Below are positions 33,866 through 40,850 of a stretch of DNA of 40,850 bases, one piece after another. The DNA is from Clostridia bacterium (lineage in GTDB: Bacteria; Bacillota; Clostridia; UBA1381; UBA9506), in the NCBI GenBank assembly GCA_017507525.1, contig JAFWAT010000031.1, positions 1 to 40,850 on the forward strand, given 5' to 3'. Within the stretch, counting starts at the first letter, position 1; each line of letters begins with the position of its first letter. The notes beneath the pieces are model-generated. The model searched no databases. It saw only the letters and a list, made by a program, of their open reading frames with translations, and was not told the origin of the DNA. The translations under genes were made by a program, and so were the position numbers.

Positions 33866-34041
33866 TGAAGTGTGTAGGAGAAAGGCGTAGCCTTGCCGAA
33901 GGAGTAATACTCTCAGGCGCAAATAGCAATGACTGCAGACGGATAGCGCTCCGGAGAAGTCCGATTCAGCTTTTGAATCAAAAGGATGCCGAAGGTGTAA
34001 GACTCATGTGAGTTAATCTCTCAGGCAAAAGGACGGAGGTA
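33866..34041 (+). promoter_or_regulatory. tandem glycine riboswitch
   Basis: Two aptamers are in series. The first has the core GCCGAAGGAG (33895-33904) and CTCTCAGGC (33910-33918); the second has GCCGAAGG (33988-33995) and CTCTCAGGC (34018-34026) followed by AAAAGGACGGAGG. A short linker joins them near 33957. This two-aptamer arrangement is the classical glycine riboswitch. It sits between a strong promoter and a terminator hairpin ahead of an amino-acid symporter, so glycine probably decides whether the symporter mRNA is completed. Confidence 0.95.
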
Positions 34042-34069
34042 AAGGTCTTAAACGACTTTGATTTTTATG

Positions 34070-34103
34070 CGGAGTTTTTGTTATATACAAAAGCTCCGTT
34101 TTT
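34070..34103 (+). terminator. terminator forming the riboswitch expression platform
   Basis: CGGAGTTTTTG (34070-34080) pairs with CAAAAGCTCCG (34088-34098; one G-T pair) around a seven-base loop, followed by five T. It lies before the symporter ribosome binding site, so it acts as an attenuator rather than a gene-end signal. Confidence 0.88.
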
Positions 34104-34134
34104 GCTTTATTTAGCGACAACTAGGAGGATTTTT

Positions 34135-35655
34135 ATGGAAAAATTTTTTACGTGGCTAACAAATTTTAACAACGACGTCAACGGCTTTGTGTGGGGCAAT
34201 GGTCTTTATTTGCTCCTTGCAACGGGTATTTTGATGACGGTTATAACCGGTGTTTTTCAGATTACCCATATTGGGCACTGGTTCTCTGAAACCCTGGGCA
34301 AGCTTTTAAAGAAAGACGTTTCCGGTCATGTTAAAGGCAAATCCATTTCTCAGTTTCAGGCACTTTGTACAGCCCTTGCTGCAACAATTGGTGTGGGCAA
34401 CATTGCCGGTGTGGCAGCTGCGATTGTGGGCGGTGGTCCTGGTGCTGTGTTCTGGATGTGGGTTGCTGCTTTCTTTGGCATGATGACCAACTACTCAGAA
34501 AATGTTCTGGGCATTTTCTACCGCAGAAAAAATGCTGACGGTGAGTGGTCCGGCGGCGCTATGTATTATCTGCAGGACGGTCTGGGGAACTTTAAGGGTT
34601 GCAAGTGGATTGGTAAAATCCTTGCGATTTTGTTCTCAATTTTCAGCATTTTAGCTTCCTTTGGTATCGGTGCTATGGGTCAGATTAACAAAATTGTTGT
34701 AAACATTGTTTCTGCCTTTAATATTCCTGCGCTTTCATCTAACGTTTTATATGAAGGCGTTTCCGTATACCATGTTTTGGTTGGTGTTGTGCTGGTTATC
34801 CTTGCAGCCCTGATTATTCTGGGCGGACTCAAAAGAATTGCCAATTTTGCTGAAAAAGTTGTGCCGGTGATGGTGGTTCTATTTGTTGTAGGGTCTTTGA
34901 TTGTGATTGGCGTTAACTACGATGCCGTTGGTGCAGCTTTTAAATCCATTTTTAAATATGCGTTTACCGTTCCGGCGGCATTGGGCGGCGTCGGCGGTAT
35001 TGTGGTGAAGGACATTGTAACACAGGGCTGTAAGCGTGGTGTATTTTCTAACGAGGCGGGTCTTGGGTCTTCGGTTATGGTGCATTCAAACTCAAACGTT
35101 GTTGAACCTGTTCGTCAGGGCCTTTGGGGCATCTTTGAGGTGTTTGCCGATACCATGGTGGTTTGTACCATGACGGCTTTGGTAGTCCTGACCTCCGGCA
35201 TGATTAACTTAGATACAGGTGCACTCCTTTTAGAGGGAGCCGGAGATGCAACCTTGGTTGCCAAAGCCTTCTCAGGGATATTCGGCATCTGGGGCGAGCG
35301 GTTTATTGCTTTAGCCATTCTGCTTTTTGCCTTTACCACGGTTTTGGGTTGGAACCATTACGGCACTAAGGCATGGGAATATTTGTTTGGCGAAAAGACA
35401 AAGATGGTTTATAAGGTGATTCATCTTGTGATGATTATGTGTGGTGCGCTACTTACTTCATCACTTGCCTGGGATATCTCCGATACCTTTAATGGCCTCA
35501 TGATGGTGCCTAACTTAATCGGCGTTATTGCCCTTTCGGGTCTGGTTATTAAAATTACCCGAAACTATGTAAATAGACGACTTAAGGGTAAGGATTTAAA
35601 ACCGATGCTTTCTGCCTTCCCTGATATTCAGAAGGAGCAGGAAGAAAGAGTTTAA
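34135..35655 (+). CDS. AGCS family sodium:alanine/glycine symporter
   Basis: A 506-residue symporter with around eleven membrane segments. The AGCS landmarks are ALCTALAATIGVGNIAGVAA, GGGPGAVFWMWVAAFFGM, YSENVLGIFYR, GVFSNEAGLGSSVMVHS and FAFTTVLGWNHYGTKAWEY. It imports alanine or glycine with sodium; control by a glycine riboswitch makes glycine the likely signal and substrate. The start is ATG 34135, right after TAGGAGG; a longer frame from 34078 starts inside the attenuator hairpin and is rejected. A strong terminator follows. Confidence 0.96.
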   Translation: MEKFFTWLTNFNNDVNGFVWGNGLYLLLATGILMTVITGVFQITHIGHWFSETLGKLLKKDVSGHVKGKSISQFQALCTALAATIGVGNIAGVAAAIVGGGPGAVFWMWVAAFFGMMTNYSENVLGIFYRRKNADGEWSGGAMYYLQDGLGNFKGCKWIGKILAILFSIFSILASFGIGAMGQINKIVVNIVSAFNIPALSSNVLYEGVSVYHVLVGVVLVILAALIILGGLKRIANFAEKVVPVMVVLFVVGSLIVIGVNYDAVGAAFKSIFKYAFTVPAALGGVGGIVVKDIVTQGCKRGVFSNEAGLGSSVMVHSNSNVVEPVRQGLWGIFEVFADTMVVCTMTALVVLTSGMINLDTGALLLEGAGDATLVAKAFSGIFGIWGERFIALAILLFAFTTVLGWNHYGTKAWEYLFGEKTKMVYKVIHLVMIMCGALLTSSLAWDISDTFNGLMMVPNLIGVIALSGLVIKITRNYVNRRLKGKDLKPMLSAFPDIQKEQEERV

Positions 35656-37715: not shown

Positions 37716-37731
37716 TTTTGTGTGGTATAAT
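37703..37731 (+). promoter_or_regulatory. possible promoter reading into structured repeat A
   Basis: TTGTCT (37703-37708) and perfect TATAAT (37726-37731) are 17 bases apart. The -35 box lies inside the right arm of the fucI terminator, and transcription would begin within the first hairpin of the repeat. Confidence 0.45.
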
Positions 37732-37911
37732 GAGTTTGCAAAGCAAACTCAATGAATTGCCTTCGGCATGAATTGAAATCAGAGATTTCATGAATTGAGC
37801 CTGCGGCTCATGAATTGCACTAAAGTGCATTAAAGGCAATTCAATTCATGGAGCGAAGCGAGAATTCATGGCGGAACGCCAATTCATGACAACGACAGTT
37901 GTCGATTCATT
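37732..37911. repeat. multi-hairpin tower repeat, copy A
   Basis: Eight small hairpins are separated by linkers. Left-half linkers read (A/C)ATGAATTG (37751-37759, 37767-37775, 37789-37797, 37809-37817); right-half linkers read (C/G)(A/G)ATTCAT(G/T) (37842-37850, 37862-37870, 37880-37888, 37903-37911). Taken in nested order each left linker is the complement of a right linker, with at most one mismatch or wobble. Hairpin stems include GAGTTTGC/GCAAACTC, TGCC/GGCA, GAAATC/GATTTC, TGAGCC/GGCTCA, TGCAC/GTGCA, TGGCG/CGCCA and GACAAC/GTTGTC. No open frame covers the element. Confidence 0.9.
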
Positions 37912-37952
37912 AAAATGTCTGTCTTCTAAATTGTGCAACCAATTTGTACAAC

Positions 37953-38011
37953 GTAGGGTTCGGCGGTTTCCGACGAACCGCTTTCGGCACATCCTAAAGG
38001 CTGTGCCCTAC
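37953..38011. repeat. second structured palindromic element (GTAGGG...CCCTAC)
   Basis: Outer arms GTAGGG (37953-37958) and CCCTAC (38006-38011) enclose two hairpins: GGTTCGGCGG/CCGACGAACC (one mismatch; 37957-37966 with 37970-37979) and GGCACA/TGTGCC (37986-37991 with 38002-38007). It is G+C richer than its surroundings and resembles intergenic palindromic repeats common in gut Clostridia. Only one copy is seen here, so calling it a repeat family member is inference. Confidence 0.6.
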
Positions 38012-38078
38012 AATAAATATGGCACATTGAACGAAACGAGCCCCGATTCTAGTAAAGAATGTAAAAAGGAGAAATATT

Positions 38079-38582
38079 ATGTTTCATGAAAAAACAAAAT
38101 ATAGTTTAGTTTGTTTAATATTTTTTCTTTTAATGCCGGTTTGTGTGAGTGCAAATATGGTTTGGCCATCTTTATATATTGCAGAGGGTATGAGAAGTTG
38201 GTATGTGATATTAATTGGTCTTGTAATCGAAATAATATTTGTAAAAGGCTTTTTAAAACAATCCTATTTAAAATCAGTTTTAATAGCTTTTGTTATGAAT
38301 TTAGCATCAACGGTTTTAGGAATTATTGCAATACCTTTAAGTGGTTTTATAGGTGAAATTCTAATGATTCCTTTTGATACAGGCACATTTCATCCTACAC
38401 ATTGGTTGATGAGTTATATTTTTGCTATACTTTCAAATGTATTGATTGAAGGTTTTACTGTTAAATTTATATTTAAGCATAACTTTAAAAAGATGTTTTG
38501 GTGGTTATTTGTTGCAAATGCAATTAGTGTTATAGTTTGCATTTTGTTTCATGGAATTGTGATGCAGAATATAAATATATAA
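38079..38582 (+). CDS. small multi-spanning membrane protein of unknown function
   Basis: A 167-residue hydrophobic protein follows AAAAAGGAG by seven bases. A first hydrophobic segment resembling a signal (LVCLIFFLLMPVCVSANMVW) is followed by at least three more: WYVILIGLVIEIIFVKGF, a stretch around VLIAFVMNLASTVLGIIAI and the C-terminal WWLFVANAISVIVCILFHG. No catalytic motif was recognised. Codon use is strikingly A/T-rich compared with the housekeeping genes to the left, suggesting a different history. It is flanked by structured repeats upstream; no promoter of its own was identified. Confidence 0.8.
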   Translation: MFHEKTKYSLVCLIFFLLMPVCVSANMVWPSLYIAEGMRSWYVILIGLVIEIIFVKGFLKQSYLKSVLIAFVMNLASTVLGIIAIPLSGFIGEILMIPFDTGTFHPTHWLMSYIFAILSNVLIEGFTVKFIFKHNFKKMFWWLFVANAISVIVCILFHGIVMQNINI

Positions 38583-38629
38583 TTTTTAGTCTTAACTTTA
38601 CACGAACTATTACAAGGGGTATGATTTAG

Positions 38630-38765
38630 ATGCAAGTGAGTTTGCCCAGTGTTAATGCGGGTTTGAGCCGATTTCGAAAAAATTAAAAAGATATATATGG
38701 TGGATGAAAAGGGTATCCTGACCAATAGGAACAAAAATTCGGCGGATTTAATGGAATTAAAATAG
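38630..38765 (+). other. intergenic segment with two very short open frames
   Basis: The 208-base gap between the two neighbouring genes contains ATG-initiated frames of 18 codons (38630-38686, ending FRKN) and 22 codons (38697-38765, ending LMELK). Neither has a good ribosome binding site. Their amino-acid composition is not obviously random, so they may be remnants of a lost gene. TTTAGATGC at 38625-38633 is the reverse complement of the first nine bases of the 15-base element seen three times further right. Confidence 0.3.
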
Positions 38766-38790
38766 GTGTAATAACAAAGGAGAATGAGCT

Positions 38791-39777
38791 ATGGAAAAAA
38801 CCAAAATAAGCATAAAAAGATTGCCTTGTGTATTAGGCTGTGCTGCTAAATGTAAAATTGAGTTGGATGGCATATGTGTAGGAAAAGTTGCAAATGGAAA
38901 AACTGTTGAATTTTTGGTTGAGCAAGGTAAACATACTTTAAGTATATATTGGGGTTGGAAGAAAAAAACAACTATAGAAATAAATATTAATGAAGATGAT
39001 GAAATAATAAATCTAATTGCCAAGTTAAACATTGCGAAAGATAGATTAGATTTTTATTCAGCAGATAATCAACTTTTAAGCGCTGACTCGGACAAGGGTT
39101 CCACAGTTACTATGTCAAATCCAAAAGGTACTACAAATTTTGCTCGAAGAGATGTTGTTGTTCTTGCTAGTGCCGCAGTTGTGGTTTGTTTGTGTGTAGT
39201 AGGAATATTATTAGCAGGTAATACAATGGTTAGTGAAAACAATAATGTTGTCAATACGCAAAATGAAAATATGACAGAAGAAGAAAAAGCAGGATTAGAA
39301 ATAGAAAAAGCTAATAACTGCTTTGCTGAAAACGATTACCAAGAAGCAATGGAAATATGTAGCACAGTGGTTGAAACATATCCAAATACAAGCATAGCGC
39401 AAAATATGAATAGTTATTTACAGGAACAATTTGGACAGTTTGTACATATTACAGCAAAAGAGTTAATGAATGAATACGAAACCAATGTTGTAAATGCTGA
39501 TGAAAAGTATACTGGCACAGTTGTAATTATTTCTGGAACAGTAAGCGGAATTGATAAAACTAATAACGATAAGAATTTATGCGTACTTCTTAAATCTGGA
39601 ACATATTTTGCAAATGTACAGTTAAACTTTGATACATCGCAAACAGAGAGTGTTGCAACTTTAAAACCTGGTGATACGGTTAAAGCTATCGGAAGATGTA
39701 CAGGGAAAAATGGCAAGGTGTTAGTGTTCTTTGACGGCAATAATGTTATGATTAGTGACAGTCTACTTATTGATTAA
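38791..39777 (+). CDS. single-pass membrane protein with OB-fold (tRNA_anti-like) domain
   Basis: A 328-residue protein; AAAGGAG precedes the ATG. Residues 1-95 form a soluble, beta-rich domain with a carrier-like look (KCKIELDGICVGKVANGKTV, LVEQGKHTLSIYWGWKKKT), perhaps PEGA-like. A membrane segment follows near 125-147 (VVLASAAVVVCLCVVGILLA), then a TPR-like pair of helices (EIEKANNCFAENDYQEAMEI). The C-terminal ~110 residues resemble the tRNA_anti-like OB fold (ITAKELMNEYETNVVNADEK, YTGTVVIISGTVSGI, KPGDTVKAIGRCTG). The function is unknown; a regulatory or binding role at the envelope is possible. It is A/T-rich like its neighbours. Confidence 0.8.
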   Translation: MEKTKISIKRLPCVLGCAAKCKIELDGICVGKVANGKTVEFLVEQGKHTLSIYWGWKKKTTIEININEDDEIINLIAKLNIAKDRLDFYSADNQLLSADSDKGSTVTMSNPKGTTNFARRDVVVLASAAVVVCLCVVGILLAGNTMVSENNNVVNTQNENMTEEEKAGLEIEKANNCFAENDYQEAMEICSTVVETYPNTSIAQNMNSYLQEQFGQFVHITAKELMNEYETNVVNADEKYTGTVVIISGTVSGIDKTNNDKNLCVLLKSGTYFANVQLNFDTSQTESVATLKPGDTVKAIGRCTGKNGKVLVFFDGNNVMISDSLLID

Positions 39778-39825
39778 ATTTGATAATTTGTAGCCCTAAC
39801 TTAATATAATGGCGCTGCTAACAAG

Positions 39826-39841
39826 TTGGCATCTAAACCTT
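39826..39841 (+). repeat. 15-base element GCATCTAAACCTTAT, first copy
   Basis: The same 15 bases recur at 40561-40575 and 40778-40792. Here it lies between two unrelated genes and is not followed by the tower repeat. A GC-rich segment with complementary CTAACTT and AAGTTGG arms lies just before it (39800-39826). Confidence 0.6.
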
Positions 39842-39891
39842 ATATTCCTTATATAAAGATGTCGAATGTTATCAAAAAAGGAAGAGTGAGT

Positions 39892-40515
39892 ATGGAAGAA
39901 AATAAAAATACAAATGTTAGTTTTTCGGATAAGCATCCTAAAATCAATGCATGTATAGCACTATTCGTTTTAATAGGACTCGTCGTATTAGCAGTATGGT
40001 TATTAAAATGGATTATTTCTTATATAGGTCAAGGTGTAGAAAAATTAGCAACTGTGATTTCGAATTTAGATGCTGTGGTAATTGTAGCATTAATAACAGC
40101 ATCCGTTTCATTGATCGGCGTAATAATTAGTTCTATTGTATCAAAAATTATTGATTACAAAAAAACTAGACAGGAATATTTGGCACAAAAGCGTGAAGAA
40201 CCCTATGGTGAGTTTGTTGATATGGTATATAAGATACAACAGAATTCAAAGAATCCTAATAGTTACACGCAAGAACAAATGATCGAAGATTTATTAAGAT
40301 TTTCAAAAAAGATAACATTATGGGGATCCCCGACTGTAGCAAAAAAATGGGTTGAATTTCGATTAAATGGTGCAAAGCCTGATGCAGGGAAAGAAAACCT
40401 ATTCATAATGGAGCAAATAATGAACGAAATGAGGAAAGATCTAGGGTTGAAAAAAGTAAAGAAGGGAAATTTATTAGGATTTTTCATTAACGATATAAAG
40501 GATGCTCTTAAATAA
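39892..40515 (+). CDS. membrane protein of unknown function
   Basis: A 207-residue protein. ATG 39892 is chosen because AAAGGAAGAG stands just upstream; the open frame reaches 39826 but has no site there and would include the 15-base repeat. Two hydrophobic segments (ACIALFVLIGLVVLAVWLLK at about 20-39 and VVIVALITASVSLIGVIISS at about 63-82) are followed by a soluble helical domain with a motif SKKITLWGSPTVAKKWVEFR and a basic C-terminus. Similar two-helix proteins with a WGS motif occur as orphan genes in Firmicutes, but I know no function. It lies directly before two tandem copies of the tower repeat. Confidence 0.8.
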   Translation: MEENKNTNVSFSDKHPKINACIALFVLIGLVVLAVWLLKWIISYIGQGVEKLATVISNLDAVVIVALITASVSLIGVIISSIVSKIIDYKKTRQEYLAQKREEPYGEFVDMVYKIQQNSKNPNSYTQEQMIEDLLRFSKKITLWGSPTVAKKWVEFRLNGAKPDAGKENLFIMEQIMNEMRKDLGLKKVKKGNLLGFFINDIKDALK

Positions 40516-40560
40516 TATAAATATTTTGTTCTTAATATGAACTTTCGCTAAAAGAGGTTT

Positions 40561-40777
40561 GCATCTAAACCTTATGTGTCGCAATGCGTTGCATAAGCAA
40601 CGCAATGAATTGCCTGACGGCATGAATTGAAAATTAAAATTTTCATGAATTGAGCCTTGCGGCTCATGAATTGCACCTTTGGTGCATTTTAAGGCAATTC
40701 AATTCATGGAGCATAGCGAGAATTCATGGCAGAGCCAATTCATGACAACGAAGTTGTCAATTCATTTAAAATGGTGT
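40561..40777. repeat. multi-hairpin tower repeat, copy B, with leader (one 217-bp tandem unit)
   Basis: The unit starts with GCATCTAAACCTTAT, then the tower at 40586-40766. All four nested linker pairs (40604-40612/40758-40766, 40621-40629/40736-40744, 40644-40652/40720-40728, 40665-40673/40700-40708) match, three perfectly and one with a single mismatch. Hairpin stems differ from copy A but still pair, for example GCGTTGC/GCAACGC, GAAAAT/ATTTTC, TGCACC/GGTGCA and TGGC/GCCA. Confidence 0.92.
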
Positions 40778-40850
40778 GCATCTAAACCTTATGTGTCGCA
40801 ATGCGTTGCATAAGCAACGCAATGAATTGCCTGACGGCATGAATTGAAAA
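40778..40850. repeat. multi-hairpin tower repeat, copy C, truncated by window end
   Basis: These 73 bases are identical to 40561-40633: the 15-base leader, the first two hairpins and the first linkers. The 217-bp spacing shows that copies B and C are a direct tandem; whether more follow cannot be seen. Confidence 0.92.

Follow-up and report, generated by a model that had tools for sequence, protein, structure and literature searches.

A two-armed hairpin array co-inherited with IVP proteins in gut Clostridia, and its relation to the Rfam family Gut-1

Hairpin arrays downstream of fucI

The window, i.e. the whole stretch of 40,850 nucleotides that was analysed, comes from a Clostridia bacterium and holds two full copies of a hairpin array (A and B) together with a third copy that is interrupted by the contig end. 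The copies are located among open reading frames (ORFs) and downstream of fucI, and an Rfam search found no rRNA in the window. Collecting copies across the genome and its relatives placed the array at nine positions in the host genome and gave 24 distinct, diverse copies. Each full copy had been predicted to comprise eight hairpins (H1-H8) spaced by left-hand (L1-L4) and right-hand (R1-R4) linkers, an order that we confirmed for both. The features are as follows, with the strand for those that have one:

37726..37731, + strand: TATAAT, a -10-like box directly 5' of copy A
37731-37911: copy A, hairpins and linkers in the predicted order
37731..37751: H1 of copy A, TGAGTTTGC-AAA-GCAAACTCA
37750..37821, + strand: left arm of copy A, full-length alignment to the Rfam model Gut-1 (RF01706) at a sub-gathering score
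37752..37759: linker L1 of copy A, ATGAATTG, which with the H2 5' arm complements the centre at 37835-37843
37759..37767: H2 of copy A, GCC-TTC-GGC
37768..37817: L2-H3-L3-H4-L4 of copy A, left arm with C(TNC)G-type loops
37817..37828: H5 of copy A, the cap
37835..37843: central strand of copy A, GGCAATTCA, the complement of L1 and the 5' arm of H2, with covariation across 40 copies
37843..37911: right arm of copy A, R1-H6-R2-H7-R3-H8-R4, with AATTCATG linkers and GNA-type loops
37922..37952, + strand: degenerate right end of copy A, TCTTCTAAATTGTGCAACCAATTTGTACAAC (consensus GGCATCTAAATCGTTCACTGATTTTATAAT)
39820..39855, + strand: further right-end-type site, TTGGCATCTAAACCTTATATTCCTTATA, between two ORFs, possibly cargo
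40556..40585, + strand: right-end-type site preceding copy B, GGTTTGCATCTAAACCTTATGTGTCGCAAT
40585-40766: copy B, hairpins and linkers in the predicted order
40585..40604: H1 of copy B, TGCGTTGC-ATAA-GCAACGCA
40605..40766: L1 to R4 of copy B
40774..40802, + strand: right end of copy B, repeating the sequence found 5' of B
40802..40850: third copy, cut at the end of contig C7

Covariation, folding and nucleic acid form

The original prediction rested on stems that differ between A and B on both strands together. These changes are real and extend far beyond two copies. Among the 24 distinct copies, 88% of the cells were paired and 27 of the 43 pairs showed changes on both sides, with 94 double-change cells compared to 28 in shuffles. 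The covariation score was 0.266, while shuffled alignments gave 0.106 ± 0.009 (0/500 as high) and slid registers at most 0.087. Covariation in these 24 copies and in a set of 40 (see below) supports selection for structure and refutes recent duplication followed by random mutation. The RNA folds of A and of B were each better than 199 of 200 dinucleotide shuffles (z = -3.7 and -3.5, respectively); the DNA fold of copy A reached a z of -5.8.

The long-range structure of the array differs from the tower of stacked four-way junctions that had been proposed, in which L1-L4 pair with R4-R1 in nested order. The complementarity of left and right linkers holds, but as the L linkers resemble one another, and so do the R linkers, the nested register is indistinguishable from any other L:R pairing. 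Moreover, the centre of the array contains a fifth right-hand linker, GGCAATTCA (37835-37843), which is complementary to L1 and the 5' arm of H2 (TGAATTGCC). Arm and centre covary across 40 copies (0/5000 permutations equally good), which supports their pairing; with it, neither hairpin H2 nor L1:R4 can form. The tower is one possible fold besides others, and at one step it is in competition with a better-supported pairing. H6, described as the exception with only a GC/GC core, forms a perfect hairpin in several copies (GTTGCGATAGCAAC), whereas the description fits elsewhere: the imperfect H6 (GGAGCGAAGCGAG) keeps the core with a GAA loop and tandem G.A/A.G.

The stems are essentially Watson-Crick, with 5 G-T and 11 A-C among 530 pairs; 21 G-T pairs would be expected at the terminator rate (p = 3e-5) and 35 at the tRNA rate (p = 1e-10). 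Such stems could also stem from template-switch repair of palindromes. In addition, the loops are of the type TN(1-2)C on the left and GN(1-2)A on the right (30:0 against 0:20, p = 2e-14), a polarity that is identical in leaders with unrelated linkers. This flip of loop type between strands at the centre occurs in a manner suited to DNA hairpins. Because G-U pairs are lacking and the loops are polar, the RNA reading implied by the original prediction is disfavoured, and we favour the array as a DNA substrate that would be bound by its own IVP protein.

Gut-1 and the link to IVP genes

The repeat had been said to match no nameable architecture. Its left arm, however, aligns end to end with Gut-1: window positions 37750-37821 cover model positions 1-77 of 77, at 21.7 bits and hence below the gathering threshold of 50. 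Sister leaders exceed the gathering score at L188 (57.9 and 51.6) and L197 (51.7). Gut-1 was recovered from leaders of several linker types, the left and right arms being matched on opposite strands, and this orphan family is one arm of a two-armed palindromic IVP leader. Like the array, Gut-1 RNA has hairpins (three) spaced by repeated linkers that start with CAAUGAA. Gut-1, which is filed as an sRNA, is modelled as a single arm in which the linkers read GUGAAAU. This is half of the array, whose two arms make up a palindrome with matches on both strands, with a link to the IVP gene and with at least six linker types.

No IVP match was found in the window, the hits in the host genome being on C19, C20, C24 and C26; a full element in the same genome (L141/L005) does encode IVP. 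In 844 kb of loci picked by linkers alone and not by IVP, 10 of 11 IVP ORFs lay within 80 nt of an array, while 5% of the bases were within 100 nt of one. Conversely, an array leader, as judged by eye, preceded 15 of 29 IVP genes picked by Pfam alone, so that about half of the sampled IVPs were without an array. As arrays contaminated the generic controls, hairpin density replaced linker counting for the IVP leaders: perfect hairpins numbered 2.8 per 300 nt in leaders and 0.83 in 143 controls (p = 1e-8). The gene starts at the R4 end (37911 in copy A) in L141, L050, L145, L066, L124, L053 and others, and sits at the position of the H5 cap in L052, L130 and L028.

At least six linker types occur among the leaders (e.g., ATGAATTG in L141 and GTGATATT in L139), while the layout is constant even where linkers are unrelated. 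On a tree of 43 IVPs the linker word requires six changes, which is the minimum, compared to 23.9 for shuffled words (0/200). Several IVP clades span mixed host families, and the host genome carries IVPs of three groups. Array and IVP protein are inherited together, each change of linker word coinciding exactly with a change of IVP clade, and the two have co-evolved. Genome G001 (96% complete) gave no match to PF05635 (IVP) despite about ten array copies, and a resident IVP is thus not needed for keeping copies. The IVP-gene link alters the meaning of the repeat and is invisible from the window alone.

IVP/S23 proteins came to light with the first intervening sequences (IVS) in 23S rRNA, but they are still termed functionally uncharacterised (PMC11270868). 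IVP is matched by PDB 2RLD (five chains) at 5e-27, and a homopentamer was reported for a relative (PMC4990558). The co-evolution of array and protein makes the old question of IVP function testable: a nucleic-acid partner with different linkers in many clades allows a direct assay of binding and specificity, and the naturally swapped linkers could reveal how a helical bundle of five subunits recognises hairpins arrayed in repeats.

Element ends, possible mobility and competing explanations

Gene-less copies keep the left part and the right end of full elements. The full elements L141, L145 and L050 have both ends in common with the gene-less copies A, L002, L003 and L007; as in MITEs, the ends of a coding element are present and its gene is absent, with the right end of copy A being degenerate. 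At three places, array-less relatives keep the promoter sequence up to a -10-like box, behind which the host element starts. The orthologous fucI locus of G008 also has this box (GTTATAAT), and the sequences diverge downstream of it. Judging from these comparisons, the window copies appear to be MITE-like derivatives that lack the gene, have the ends of full elements and follow immediately on the -10 box of a promoter. Both H1 and the right end also occur with arrays of differing linker types and on array-less units; the end-acting factor may thus not be the cognate IVP. The signal for a target-site duplication was weak: across 17 cases, own pairs exceeded the others by 0.76 matches in 8 nt, and part of this excess came from tandem units. 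Guide-target pairing by H1, as in group II introns, was dropped, as one H1 precedes arrays of different linker types and tandem L045 copies with different H1 directly abut.

The host genome (96% complete) had no match to reverse transcriptase (PF00078), the enzyme expected with a group II intron, a retron or a diversity-generating retroelement, and we rejected for this genome that a resident enzyme reverse-transcribes the element in trans. It had none to Y1 transposase/RAYT (PF01797) either, for which controls gave hits, so that Y1/RAYT mobilisation was ruled out as well. Five recombinases, classed as tyrosine recombinases in general, are encoded in the genome, none of them adjoining an array, which speaks against an integron. 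No candidate for strand breakage emerged among these three enzyme classes, and plasmid and phage collections gave no DNA match.

Several explanations can be weighed against these data. The array might be a structured RNA, as the name Gut-1 RNA suggests, and form the leader at the 5' end of the IVP mRNA; IVP would bind it to regulate its own expression or as part of a selfish RNA-protein unit, and solo copies would be sRNA genes. In most loci the array indeed lies directly 5' of the IVP ORF and in the same orientation, A and B have significant RNA folds, and an extended -10 stands 5' of H1 in many copies. Yet this box abuts H1, part of which would escape transcription from a start ~7 nt downstream; the stems lack wobble pairs, G-U showing no excess over A-C, the dyad makes both strands match the Gut-1 model, and the loop type flips strand at the centre. 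We regard this reading as unlikely. We are similarly doubtful that the units are passive cassettes, with IVP and array merely as cargo, of a site-specific system, integron-like or otherwise, that recombines at GGCATCT...TATAAT sites. Such a system would account for tandem units with the same site (window copy B and the third copy, L145 and L004), for array-less units with the same ends and for the different unit that fills the orthologous fucI site in G008. However, integrases adjoining the arrays are missing, many leaders of other clades (L066, L124, L139, L186) are without these ends, and the exact match of linker type and IVP clade is unexplained. That the arrays are REP/BIME-like repeats retained as gyrase sites or for terminating transcription or stabilising mRNA, with IVP genes tending to be located nearby, seems very improbable to us: they are short, palindromic, intergenic and multi-copy, and some H1 hairpins resemble terminators (L186, L188), but the host genome is without a RAYT (Y1) gene, and the fixed 4+4 linker layout, the central strand and the clade-specific linkers are left unexplained.

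We consider it probable that A and B, which lack the gene, are MITE-like derivatives of an element family that is dispersed and looks mobile in gut Clostridia, and that its array is IVP-bound DNA that aids copying or insertion. The full element would consist of H1 (behind TATAAT), the hairpin array, the IVP gene, sometimes a second ORF, and the right end GGCATCTAAATCGTTCACTGATTTTATAAT. The array would act as DNA that forms hairpins or a cruciform when single-stranded, e.g. in open promoters or while being replicated. The IVP of each clade would be a pentamer built from four-helix bundles and would bind the linkers and hairpins of its own array; together they may aid copying of the element or its insertion behind promoter -10 boxes, leaving strand breakage to the host or a separate enzyme. 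More tentatively, the four-helix-bundle protein IVP (S23) might serve for recognition in mobile elements of a new class, which would have a two-armed hairpin DNA 'tree' in cis with a clade-specific linker code, Gut-1 being one arm, solo copies being MITEs and insertion occurring in the melted -10 region. The orphan family Gut-1 would then be explained as half of a DNA element.

Related systems share parts of this arrangement. Literature searches with sequence words or for IVP mobile elements yielded only IVS papers of use. The 23S rRNA IVS with an S23/IVP ORF (Coxiella, Leptospira; PMC4990558) likewise has PF05635 in or beside an inverted-repeat structure, and it was proposed to be a mobile element that needs its ORF for mobility (PMC4990558). 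In contrast to the IVS with its one terminal stem, the array lies outside rRNA, is a multi-hairpin palindrome and has gene-less copies, tandem arrays and clade-specific linkers. Avd of diversity-generating retroelements belongs to the same protein fold family as IVP (PMC10053308), whereas the host genome is without reverse transcriptase. REP/BIME with RAYT transposases and MITEs are also short, non-autonomous palindromic repeats, mobilised in trans where known; here the partner is IVP, and the genome is without Y1 transposase. CRISPR was ruled out, as the units are nested complementary hairpins rather than spacer-separated direct repeats. The sole riboswitch matched in the window is a glycine riboswitch (33941-34046), which is unrelated to the array.

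Architecture and pairing of the hairpin arrays

Our analysis places the repeat at nine sites in its own genome assembly (1.36 Mb, 96% complete, Clostridia-like; the window is its whole contig C7), including copies A (37731-37911) and B (40585-40766) and a third that is truncated where the contig ends. The predicted order of hairpins H1-H8, left linkers L1-L4 and right linkers R1-R4 matches both A and B. Their RNA folds were each better than 199 of 200 dinucleotide shuffles, and the DNA fold of copy A was better than all dinucleotide shuffles. Across 24 diverse aligned copies, the hairpins and one long-range helix contained 94 double-change cells, compared to 28 when shuffled and 15-41 in slid registers. 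The array structure is therefore under selection, as originally predicted.

The proposed tower of stacked four-way junctions held up in part. At its centre the array contains one further right-hand linker; bases mirroring the 5' arm of H2 come before it (in copy A, TGAATTGCC and GGCAATTCA). This arm (CCTT, CAACC, CGCC, CCGTT and others) covaries with the central strand in 40 copies, with 0 of 5000 permutations as good, a pairing that is incompatible with hairpin H2 and excludes the L1:R4 step of the tower. Left and right linkers vary together across families with complementarity kept (ATGAATTG/CAATTCAT, AGCTAAAT/ATTTAGCT, GCGATATA/TATATCGC, GTGAAATA/TATTTCAC, GTGATATT/AATATCAC). This supports L:R complementarity in general but no particular pairing of one L with one R; within the window family, the rest of the nested register is indistinguishable because the L linkers are all alike, as are the R linkers.

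Fixed stem positions of distinct hairpins comprised 500 Watson-Crick, 5 G-T, 11 A-C and 14 other pairs. G-T was not in excess over A-C at these positions, and its share (0.9%) compares to 6.6% in tRNA stems and 3.9% in terminators from the same loci. C-G-closed loops read T-N-C or T-NN-C in the left arm and G-N-A or G-NN-A in the right arm (30:0 versus 0:20, p=2e-14), with the GNA/GNNA type always carried by the strand that reads from the array centre outward. The same polarity recurs in fifteen leaders (arrays 5' of an IVP gene, see below) whose linkers are unrelated, with H1 as an exception. C-G-closed GNA and GNNA loops form unusually stable DNA mini-hairpins, e.g. d(GCGAAGC). We read stem pairing and loop polarity together as probable selection on DNA. 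Alternatively, the perfect stems may be due to template-switch repair of palindromes.

Association with IVP genes and Gut-1

A linkers-only pattern scanned over 84,980 genomes matched at least 119 loci, mostly gut and rumen Clostridia MAGs. Among the loci listed, an ORF lies inside the array cap at L052, L130 and L028, and directly 3' of R4 at L050, L053, L066, L124 and others. The S23/intervening-sequence protein (IVP, PF05635) encoded in or after some arrays matches PDB 2RLD (E 5e-27). Within 844 kb of linker-pattern loci, 10 of the 11 IVP ORFs among the matches listed lie ≤80 nt from an array, compared to 5% of bases lying ≤100 nt from one. One own-genome array (L005/L141) bears an IVP and then the right end GGCATCTAAATCG, identical to that closing the gene-less derivatives. 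In the relative G007, three units stand in tandem, and the last contains an IVP plus a second ORF. No IVP was found in G001, though about ten arrays are present, which counts against a simple trans-mobilisation model.

We also chose IVP genes of the same order by Pfam only and then read their upstream regions. A leader of the same layout, judged by eye, preceded 15 of 29, mostly with unrelated linker words and hairpins, and perfect hairpins were 3.3 times denser in IVP leaders than in control upstream regions. When mapped onto a 43-IVP tree, linker types, which had been assigned by eye from leaders before the tree was built, required six changes, the minimum for seven groups (shuffled, 24). 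Thus, leader and protein are inherited and changed as one unit. Several clades of this tree contain IVPs from more than one bacterial family, and three of the groups are represented in the own genome.

Several IVP units lie directly 3' of tRNA genes; at L188 (1-310), a Gut-1-type leader with its IVP lies directly behind 5S rRNA and a tRNA gene. The IVP genes of L192, L194, L195, L199, L200, L142, L193 and L196 are array-less. Their upstream regions commonly contain long inverted repeats of other kinds or tandem words rich in purines (e.g. GAATAGTGAAGAAGTGAAGG), which may represent another kind of leader within this protein family.

The L188 leader matches Gut-1 (RF01706) with its left arm on the + strand (57.9 bits) and its right arm on the - strand (51.6 bits), above the gathering score, as is the L197 leader (51.7 bits); leaders passing this score have GTGAAAT-type linkers. 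For several other linker types, Gut-1 is the top-scoring non-tRNA Rfam family below threshold, and sub-threshold matches at L139 and L186 again fall on both strands. As the two arms match on opposite strands, Gut-1 describes one arm of a dyad. Copy A aligned to the whole Gut-1 model at 21.7 bits, and under Rfam's own cut-off the window copies fall outside the family.

Element sites, element ends and a possible mechanism

In the own genus, TATAATG precedes many copies. At three loci, the promoter is retained as far as a -10-like box in a relative lacking this array; the own element starts directly after that box:

fucI locus: array-free promoter in G008; own element after -10-like box
enolase locus: array-free promoter in G002; own element after -10-like box
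L007 locus: array-free promoter in G008; own element after -10-like box

The G008 fucI site holds a different unit, closed by a similar right end. A hairpin directly following TATAAT, GATTTCATC-GAA-GATGAAATC, precedes arrays of several linker types as well as array-less units, and several units so headed close with GGCATCTAAAT...TATAAT. Arrays of different linker types and array-less units thus have their ends in common, with array plus IVP as an inner module. A target-site duplication could not be demonstrated in 17 cases.

A second type of unit (AGAATTTTATTTTATAAAATTC ... TTGACGGCGTCGTAAAAATGCCCTTGC ... GCATCT ... TATAAT), at L243 from 2533 and at L145 past its right end, fills the same sort of site as the hairpin arrays. 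L041 (600-4100) carries four ATGAATTG half-arrays within 3.2 kb, each adjoining a different reverse-strand ORF and then similar GTGAAGTT-linker hairpins, an arrangement resembling a string of gene cassettes.

In the mechanism we propose, the IVP would bind its own array, hairpin DNA would be the active form, melted promoter DNA would be the site at which the unit is copied or inserted, and another enzyme would cut the strands. IVPs have been termed functionally uncharacterised (PMC11270868); it has been suggested that the IVS ORF could function in mobility (PMC4990558), and the IVP resembles Avd of diversity-generating retroelements (PMC10053308). A literature search, with most subscription journals and preprints outside its reach, found no paper tying IVP to Gut-1 or these arrays.

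The window holds further features:

33941-34046: glycine riboswitch (RF00504, 49.4 bits), 5' of a sodium:amino-acid symporter-like ORF (34078-35655)
37953-38019: second, unrelated palindromic repeat (GTAGGGTTCGGCGGTTTCC...CCCTACAA), REP-like, with many copies in the own genome and relatives
38079-40515: three AT-rich ORFs that may be cargo, flanked by right-end-type sites; two encode membrane proteins, one of which has no Pfam match and the other no match above cut-off, and one encodes a tRNA_anti-like (PF12869, OB-fold) protein
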